Assembly: GCF_003696215.1 (NCBI RefSeq)
Contig: NZ_RFFG01000046.1
Location: 1 to 64,000 of the forward strand
Direction: 5' to 3'
Origin: Actinomadura harenae
GTDB lineage: Bacteria; Actinomycetota; Actinomycetes; Streptosporangiales; Streptosporangiaceae
Length of the DNA: 64,000 bases
Program-made: the position numbers and the translations under genes
Shown here: positions 8,172 through 56,765 of the stretch, in pieces
Layout of the letters: each line of letters opens with the position of its first letter
Position numbering within the stretch: the stretch's first letter is position 1
Notes under the pieces: generated by a model
What the model saw: the letters and a program-made list of their open reading frames with translations, nothing else
Databases searched by the model: none
What the model was told of the DNA's origin: nothing

Positions 8172-8224
8172 CGCAGGCGAGAGAGCCCGGGTCCGCGCGC
8201 CGGACCCGGGCTCTCTCGCCTGCG
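8172..8224. terminator. Perfect 24-bp hairpin terminator
   Basis: Left arm 8172-8195 and right arm 8201-8224 pair perfectly over 24 bp around a 5-nt CGCGC loop. It separates the convergent secreted-protein gene and the HdeD-like gene and should stop transcription from both sides. Confidence 0.85.
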
Positions 8225-54431: not shown

Positions 54432-56054
54432 TCAGTGCGCGGGAACGGTGTCGACCGCGGTCTCCTCGGCGGACGTGGACTTCGCGGCGGGCCCGGATCC
54501 GCGGAGCGGGACCTCCTTGATGAACCAGGCGGCGACGAAGGCCAGGGCGGCGAGGATCGCGCCGCCGATCGCGACGCCGTGCACGCCGCTGGTGACACCC
54601 GCCTCGAACGCCTTGCGGATCTCGTCGGGGAGCGTCTTCAGCACGGCCGGGGTGAAGTGCCCGCCACCGGAGACGATCTGGTGGGCCTTCGCGGCGCCGA
54701 GGTGGTCGGTGAGCACGCCCTCGAGCCGGTTGGTGTAGATCGAGCCGAGCAGCGCGACACCGAGGGAGCCGCCGATGGTGCGGAACAGGGTGACGGCGCC
54801 GCTAGCCGCGCCCATGTCGCGCAGCTCGACGCTGTTCTGCGTGACCAGCATGCTGATCTGCATGATGAATCCCATGCCCAGGCCGACGCCGAGGGTCATG
54901 AAGGAGCTCATGGCCGTCGAGGTGTCGACGGTCAGCATCAGCAGGACGAGCATGCCGCCGGTGAGGACCGCGCCGCCGATGATCGGGTAGGCCCGGTAGC
55001 GGCCGTTGCGGGTGATGAGCTGGCCGGTGGTCAGCATCACGACGAGCATGCCGAACATCAGCGGGAGCAGCAGCAGGCCGCTGTTGGTCGGGGACGCGCC
55101 CTGGACGTTCTGCATGTACTGCGGCAGGAAGTTGACCGCGCCGAACATCGCGCCGCCGACCAGGAAGCTGAGGATCTGCGCGGCGACGAAGTTGCGGCTG
55201 CGGAACAGGCGCATCGGCAGGATCGGCTCGGGGACGCGGGTCTCGGCGAACACGAACGCGACCAGGGAGACGACACCCGCGACCGCGAGGCCGATGATCT
55301 GCGCCGAGGCCCAGGGGTACTGGCTGCCGCCCCAGCTGGCGACCAGGGTGACGCAGACGACGCCGACGGTCAGCAGGGCCGCGCCGATGACGTCGATCTT
55401 CGCCTTGAGGCGGCGCGAGTGCAGGTGCATGCCGAACCCGGTGACCAGCAGCGCGACCACGCCGATCGGGACGTTCACGTAGAACGCCCAGCGCCAGCTC
55501 AGGTGGTCGGTGAGGAAGCCGCCGAGCAGCGGGCCGCCGACGAACGCGACGGGCATCATGCCGCCGATCATCGCCTGGAACTTGCCGCGCTCGCGGGGCG
55601 GGACCAGGTCGCCGATGATCGCCATGGCGCCGACCATCAGGCCGCCGGCGCCGAGGCCCTGGAGGGCGCGGAAGCCGATCAGCTCGTTCATGTTCTGCGC
55701 CAGGCCGGACAGCATCGACCCGACGAGGAAGATCACGATCGAGGACATGAACATGCCCTTGCGGCCGTACAGGTCGCCGAGCTTGCCCCAGATCGGGGTC
55801 GCGGCCGCGGCCGCGAGGGCGTAGGCGGTGACGACCCACGACAGGTGGGCGAGTCCGCCCAGGTCACCGACGATGGTCGGCAGCGCGGTGCCGACGATCA
55901 GGTTGTCGAGCATGGCCAGGAACATGCCGAGCATCAGCCCGAAGATGCCGATGTAGATCTGACGCTGGCTGTTGGCCTCGCCCTCCGCCGCCGGGGCCGC
56001 GCCCGGCCCGTCCGCGGCGGGCGGCGCGGCCTGCCCGTTTCCTGCCTGCGACAT
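54432..56054 (-). CDS. DHA2-family (EmrB/QacA) multidrug MFS exporter
   Basis: 540 residues with 14 predicted helices. Motif C-type and DHA2 signatures are visible: MFLAMLDNLIVGTALPTIVG in helix 1, LGDLYGRKGMFMSSIVIF (motif A), ALQGLGAGGLMVGAMAIIGD, and GKFQAMIGGMMPVAFVGGPL. The C-terminus is cytoplasmic and acidic. It exports lipophilic drugs by proton antiport. ATG 56054 has GGGGAG 8 nt upstream. Divergent from a TetR regulator across a 75-bp nested palindrome, so tight repression by that regulator is very likely. Confidence 0.93.
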   Translation of the reverse strand: MSQAGNGQAAPPAADGPGAAPAAEGEANSQRQIYIGIFGLMLGMFLAMLDNLIVGTALPTIVGDLGGLAHLSWVVTAYALAAAAATPIWGKLGDLYGRKGMFMSSIVIFLVGSMLSGLAQNMNELIGFRALQGLGAGGLMVGAMAIIGDLVPPRERGKFQAMIGGMMPVAFVGGPLLGGFLTDHLSWRWAFYVNVPIGVVALLVTGFGMHLHSRRLKAKIDVIGAALLTVGVVCVTLVASWGGSQYPWASAQIIGLAVAGVVSLVAFVFAETRVPEPILPMRLFRSRNFVAAQILSFLVGGAMFGAVNFLPQYMQNVQGASPTNSGLLLLPLMFGMLVVMLTTGQLITRNGRYRAYPIIGGAVLTGGMLVLLMLTVDTSTAMSSFMTLGVGLGMGFIMQISMLVTQNSVELRDMGAASGAVTLFRTIGGSLGVALLGSIYTNRLEGVLTDHLGAAKAHQIVSGGGHFTPAVLKTLPDEIRKAFEAGVTSGVHGVAIGGAILAALAFVAAWFIKEVPLRGSGPAAKSTSAEETAVDTVPAH

Positions 56055-56082: not shown

Positions 56083-56157
56083 AACTTACTTGCCGTCCGG
56101 CTAGTTTGCTTACCTGTCGTACGGTAAGCTCTGAACTAGCCGGTCGTCAAGTAAGTT
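56083..56157. promoter_or_regulatory. 75-bp nested palindrome between DHA2 and TetR genes
   Basis: Three pairs of arms share one centre near 56119: AACTTACTTG (56083-56092) with CAAGTAAGTT (56148-56157), CCGGCTAGTT (56097-56106) with AACTAGCCGG (56134-56143), and GCTTACC (56108-56114) with GGTAAGC (56123-56129). The inner GCTTACC-N8-GGTAAGC looks like a core TetR operator; the outer arms repeat CTTAC half-sites. Confidence 0.75.
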
Positions 56158-56165
56158 TCAGGGGC

Positions 56166-56765
56166 ATGGGAGTGATGATGGGCGGACGACGGGGCGACAC
56201 CCGGGAGCAGATCCGCAGGGTCGCGCTCGAGCTGTTCGCCGAGCAGGGCTACGAGAAGACCTCGCTGCGCGAGATCGCCGAGCGTCTCGGGGTGACCAAG
56301 GCCGCCCTGTACTACCACTTCAAGACCAAGGAGGACATCATCGCCAGCCTCTTCGAGGAGGTCGGCGAGAGGATGGACGAGCTGGTCACGTGGGCGAAGT
56401 CCCAGCCGATGACCCGCGAGCACCGGATAGAGGTCCTCGAACGCTACGCCGAGATGATGCGCGGCCCCGCGGGCGACCTCATGCGCTTCATGTCGCAGAA
56501 CCAGCAGGAGGTCCGCGACCTGAAGCCGGGCGAGGACGCGCGCGCCCGCTTCCGCAGCCTCGCCCGAGTCCTGGCGGACGACCGCGACCCCGTGGTCGAC
56601 CAGCTCCGCGCGCGCCTGTCCATCATGTCCCTGCACATGAGCGTGTTCCTCACCAACGACATGGACATCTCCGACGACCAGCGGCACGAGGCCGCCCTGG
56701 AGATCGCCATGGAGCTCATCGACGGGAGCCGGTCCCGCGCCCCCGGCCGGCGGCCCGCGAACTGA
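56166..56765 (+). CDS. TetR-family repressor
   Basis: 199 residues. The HTH (about 12-60) is textbook: TREQIRRVALELFAEQGYEK, TSLREIAERLGVTKAALYYH, FKTKEDIIASLFEEV. The C-terminal ligand domain follows from about 65. TAAGTT (56152-56157) lies 8 nt before ATG 56166 so a leaderless start there is likely; ATG 56178, with GGGAG 5 nt upstream, is the alternative. It should bind the palindrome at 56083-56157 and control itself and the divergent exporter. Confidence 0.9.
   Translation: MGVMMGGRRGDTREQIRRVALELFAEQGYEKTSLREIAERLGVTKAALYYHFKTKEDIIASLFEEVGERMDELVTWAKSQPMTREHRIEVLERYAEMMRGPAGDLMRFMSQNQQEVRDLKPGEDARARFRSLARVLADDRDPVVDQLRARLSIMSLHMSVFLTNDMDISDDQRHEAALEIAMELIDGSRSRAPGRRPAN

Follow-up and report, generated by a model that had tools for sequence, protein, structure and literature searches.

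A predicted array of TetR operators between the divergent repressor and DHA2 exporter genes of Actinomadura harenae

The 75-bp element at positions 56083–56157 very probably constitutes the control region of a divergent repressor/exporter gene pair of the SCO3367/SCO3366 type, in which the repressor would act at two operators, A and C, and would be released by a ligand, with a third operator copy, B, placed between them. The DNA analysed, referred to as the window, comprises positions 1 to 64,000 of the forward strand of Actinomadura harenae contig NZ_RFFG01000046.1 (GCF_003696215.1). Judging by its sequence, the element is better described as an array of TetR operators, A, C and a weaker middle copy B, than as one nested palindrome. 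Read in this way, the odd palindrome becomes a switch of predictable kind, for which homologous operators are known from experimental mapping. The direct evidence comprises the sequence, its conservation, its exclusive linkage to this gene pair and its match to published operators; from these we infer where exactly the promoters lie, that B is bound, that the repressor controls its own gene, that a ligand releases it and how many dimers occupy each site.

The element is located between two divergently transcribed genes:

54432–56054, − strand: gene encoding a DHA2/EmrB-type MFS exporter of 540 amino acids (TIGR00711 and PF07690)
56166–56765, + strand: gene encoding a TetR-family repressor of 199 amino acids, counted from the ATG at 56166 (PF00440 and fold model)

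The start codons of the two genes are separated by 111 bp, within the 200 bp taken as the upper limit for a divergent TetR/MFS pair, although the start of the TetR gene is not certain, with further ATGs at 56175 and 56178. The exporter matched TIGR00711 with 286.4 bits (curated cut-off 230.2, E 4e-85), indicating a DHA2 (EmrB) member of the MFS. The repressor matched PF00440 (TetR_N; E 5.4e-19, 68.1 bits, cut-off 24), and this helix-turn-helix domain, together with the all-helical two-domain fold of the structure model (mean pLDDT 86), identified it as a member of the TetR family. As modelled, the repressor has an ordinary TetR fold that is nearest to PDB entries 7eqf and 7eqe, the top structural match being 7eqf (Z 19.3). 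These entries, representing a TetR/AcrR family regulator, are also its closest solved relative (E 9.7e-42, 42% identity), with Z about 19 across 178–184 residues. Both are titled 'a transcription factor' and were solved with and without ligand, 7eqf being the ligand-bound form; a literature search found no open-access paper describing them. The ligand of 7eqf may give a hint at the inducer class of the repressor's family.

All three pairs of perfect arms on which the earlier note was based were found, at 56083–56092/56148–56157 (10 bp), 56097–56106/56134–56143 (10 bp) and 56108–56114/56123–56129 (7 bp). The centre they were said to share was not: the axes of the outer two pairs lie at 56120.0 each and that of the inner pair at 56118.5, 1.5 bp away, so that the three pairs do not form a single nested palindrome about a common axis. 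Both 10-bp pairs merge into a single pair of 24-bp arms (56083–56106/56134–56157) with 22 of 24 positions complementary. These arms are far above chance expectation. When the 451-bp region was shuffled 300 times with a first-order Markov model, the best arm pair reached 19/24 at most, and since no shuffle attained 20/24 the arms cannot be attributed to chance; among the remaining tiles of 451 bp in the 64-kb window, just one contained an arm pair of at least 22/24. Comparison of the arms revealed that A and C are copies of one asymmetric motif of 18–24 bp in opposite orientation, which accounts for the nested appearance, with B lying between them, 24 bp downstream of A. Three sites are thereby accommodated within 75 bp, spaced 24 and 27 bp apart:

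56083–56106, + strand: predicted operator A, the left 24-bp arm, nearer the exporter gene (core CTTACTTGCCGTCCGGCTAG at 56085–56104; published 18-bp register at 56088–56105)
56109–56128, + strand: middle copy B (CTTACCTGTCGTACGGTAAG), a probable third, weaker operator that holds the inner 7-bp arms and overlaps the −10 region
56134–56157, − strand: predicted operator C, the right 24-bp arm, nearer the TetR gene (core CTTACTTGACGACCGGCTAG at 56155–56136; published 18-bp register at 56152–56135)

A pattern search of the whole genome (9.35 Mb) with CTTACYTGNCGNCCGGCWAG returned A and C as the only exact matches. B has two mismatches to this family pattern, and just one other site in the 9.35 Mb is equally near to it. 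The score of B was 9.5 bits, against 33 and 37 bits for A and C, and it departs from the A/C consensus at positions that are invariant there (CTAG to TAAG, CCCGG to TACGG). A wider regulon in this genome was considered and rejected, given the lack of any further exact match and a total of 39 matches against 71 for the reversed control pattern; matches with two or three mismatches were no commoner than with that control, those with three representing background.

The operators were identified in turn in relatives of the gene pair. Both A and C were present upstream of the TetR gene in all 80 of the nearest TetR relatives, down to a protein identity of about 46%, and most of the core positions show little or no variation (direct reading confirmed both operators at loci L018, L056 and L075). 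A search for the A/C pair by DNA alone, using no protein information, covered 297 genomes from the class and 65 from the genus and yielded 43 loci including the window, all 43 of which lie between homologs of this TetR and this exporter. In the combined set of 103 loci, 22 of which were picked by the pattern itself, the unbiased set being the 80 loci confined to close relatives of this TetR, A showed at most three and C at most four mismatches, their orientation was always opposite, and their spacing was 45–53 bp, mostly 49–51 bp. The near-invariant A/C pair is a reliable marker of this repressor–pump pair across actinomycetes.

With a threshold of no more than four mismatches to its own consensus, B was found in 17 of 95 rows, all of which fall into a single clade of the tree of TetR proteins, the one that contains Actinomadura, Actinoallomurus and Kibdelosporangium. 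Its distribution on this tree requires two changes, compared with a mean of 15.9 with shuffled labels, and it varies little within the clade; in L003 and L007 it agrees with the A consensus at each of its first 11 bases. Streptomyces loci, like those of a second, diverged group in the genus of the window, contain A and C with spacers different from that of the window. The result that the earlier note had named as speaking against its reading, conservation of the inner 22 bp alone between variable outer arms, was the reverse of what was observed, the outer copies being nearly invariant and the inner one restricted to a clade. With the third site limited to a clade, nature provides both a two-site and a three-site version of one switch for comparison.

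The closest experimental precedent is SCO3367 of S. coelicolor, whose gene diverges from the MFS gene SCO3366 across an interval of 158 bp. It gave two shifts in EMSA, and of its two DNase I footprints one is nearer SCO3367 and the other nearer SCO3366; a luminescence reporter demonstrated that it represses SCO3366, and S. albus J1074 served as the host for SCO3367 (PMC3511530). Its putative operators were given as ACTTGACGCCCGGCTAGT and ACTTGCCGGGCGGCAAGT (PMC3511530). The former differs from C of the window (56135–56152) by one mismatch in 18 and the latter, read on the − strand, from A (56088–56105) by two in 18, no other site of the window being as near to either. The two systems share divergent TetR and MFS genes and two operators, one nearer each gene; they differ in that the window has the additional middle copy B, whereas SCO3367 gave just the two shifts and footprints. 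Many Streptomyces loci with the same operators encode homologs of this TetR/exporter pair. The window pair therefore appears to be of the SCO3367/SCO3366 type, with orthology suggested by operators and gene order rather than by protein comparison. SCO4008/SCO4007, considered at first as a possible named relative, was dropped once the SCO3367 operators had been matched. The view in the earlier note that the TetR protein has its operator DNA here, with the DHA2 pump as repressed target, agrees with what conservation and the SCO3367 operator match predict. On these comparisons the switch is of an ordinary, highly conserved and already characterised kind, with one extra copy in this lineage; B is the sole element for which, as far as we found, the literature holds no report.

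Candidate promoters were placed by comparison of the homologous loci:

56145–56150, − strand: predicted exporter −35, TTGACG, inside C (TTGAC invariant in C at 80/80 loci)
56121–56126, − strand: predicted exporter −10, TACCGT (TACCTT or TACCGT at 54/78 loci)
56110–56116, + strand: tentative TetR-gene −10, TTACCT/TACCTG, at the position of the Streptomyces TACACT and weak in the window

The predicted exporter promoter of the window reads TTGACG-N18-TACCGT, and the 18-bp spacer is kept at 66 of 78 loci. The A of TTGACG was invariant in C (80/80), whereas operator A mostly has TTGCCG, with C at that position in 75/80; this main constant difference between the two operators would be due to the exporter −35 sitting in C. 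The −10 of the TetR gene is probably the TACACT/TACAGT hexamer found in the A–C spacer of 56 of the 78 homologous loci, and in 62 of the 78 a candidate was located at a distance of 24–26 bp from the A-core start; in the window itself this promoter is not well resolved. The earlier note had proposed TAAGTT (56152–56157) as the TetR −10, a placement that we do not favour, as the transcript would then have a leader of only a few bases ahead of the ATG (56166), and the likely −10 of the homologs lies in the A–C spacer. A scan for consensus promoters of the E. coli type found none in the region.

Based on this arrangement, A and C would mark the two outer limits of a pair of promoters that face each other and overlap, with C overlapping the exporter −35 and A the upstream part of the repressor promoter, and a repressor bound at either operator would also get in the way of transcription from the opposing promoter. 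With repressor dimers seated on A and C, both genes would be turned off, combining repression of the pump with autoregulation. Where B is present, in the Actinomadura clade including this genome, it would cover the −10 region. Binding of a ligand, probably a pump substrate, to the C-terminal domain of the repressor would then release it from the DNA. We tentatively entertain, with more doubt than belief, a further idea, namely that Actinomadura, Actinoallomurus and Kibdelosporangium have a weaker third operator over the −10, that a few Streptomyces separately gained a copy 24–35 bp beyond C, and that the 24-bp step reflects a selected dimer geometry that sharpens repression.

The status of B bears on an alternative according to which only A and C are operators and the inner GCTTACC/GGTAAGC arms are two similar −10 hexamers facing each other (TTACCT on the + and TACCGT on the − strand). 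B does overlap both predicted −10 hexamers and scores much below A and C, and Streptomyces manage with A and C alone, SCO3367 having produced no more than two shifts and two footprints. However, B is like A over its whole length of 20 bp, and so also at the TG.CG centre, which lies outside the −10s; its A-like beginning in L003 and L007, its retention within the clade and the single other genomic site as near to the pattern likewise argue for a binding site. We therefore regard the alternative as rather unlikely, though deserving some weight, and B as a probable third, weaker predicted operator.

Much less room is left for two readings of the element as a single structure. One 75-bp nested palindrome with a single axis, recognised by a higher-order cooperative assembly of TetR, would account for the complementarity of the 24-bp arms and for A and C always being opposite and 45–53 bp apart, but we consider it very unlikely given that the inner pair has a different axis, that the A–C distance differs between loci by as much as 8 bp, enough to rotate one site against the other through the greater part of a helical turn, and that the S. 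coelicolor footprints are two and separate (PMC3511530). That the repeat works as a hairpin of RNA or DNA, be it a terminator, an attenuator or a cruciform, instead of an operator is extremely improbable: although pairing of the 24-bp arms is conceivable, it would leave a loop of 27 nt without a T-run, and the predicted transcription starts lie inside the spacer, so that neither leader would contain both arms. A hairpin would, moreover, have no need of conservation of the sequence itself or of the constant TTGACG/TTGCCG arm difference. An RNA terminator or attenuator at 56083–56157 was also discarded following a negative terminator search.

The array of separate operators resembles other TetR-family systems to differing degrees. 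SimR/SimX of the simocyclinone producer also has a TetR-family repressor that binds at two distinct operators in the region from which its own gene and that of an MFS exporter diverge, and its ligand abolishes repressor binding (PMC5812520); it differs in being located in an antibiotic gene cluster, and the likeness is one of architecture, the proteins being others. Tn10 TetR/TetA likewise has two operators in a divergent intergenic region and both genes repressed (summarised in PMC3511530), yet its operators are 15-bp palindromes and it belongs to another TetR subfamily; the window repressor matched the TetR model in the region of the DNA-binding domain alone, far below the cut-off. With QacR and CprB, two further members of the TetR family, the control DNA also takes up more than one dimer (PMC4150764), but there two dimers occupy one operator (22 bp in CprB, PMC4150764), whereas the window has separate copies. 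Copies of 18–24 bp would in principle be long enough for two dimers each; by analogy, the two shifts and two operators of SCO3367 fit one binding unit per copy. Of the proposal in the earlier note that several dimers bind cooperatively, the involvement of more than one dimer is retained, the element being longer than one dimer covers and composed of separate copies, while cooperativity between the sites found no support here; the variation of the A–C spacing over 45–53 bp argues against strict helical phasing.

Further variants of the arrangement were observed. In the genus of the window, a diverged TetR/DHA2 branch with 38–47% TetR identity (L128, L129, L132, L133, L137, L138, L142, L144 and L145) has A and C almost unchanged, mostly 45–46 bp apart, and is without B; L145 has TTGACG in both operators, so that the pattern matches both strands. 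The Streptomyces loci L070, L076, L055 and L074 have an extra operator copy 24, 24, 26 and 35 bp beyond C, respectively, oriented like C, giving a third site placed elsewhere than B. Elsewhere in the window, at 8172–8224, an inverted repeat was found whose 24-bp arms pair perfectly around a loop of 5 nt (CGCAGGCGAGAGAGCCCGGGTCCG/CGGACCCGGGCTCTCTCGCCTGCG); it is stronger than the repeat at 56083–56157 and has the look of an intergenic hairpin of the bidirectional terminator type.
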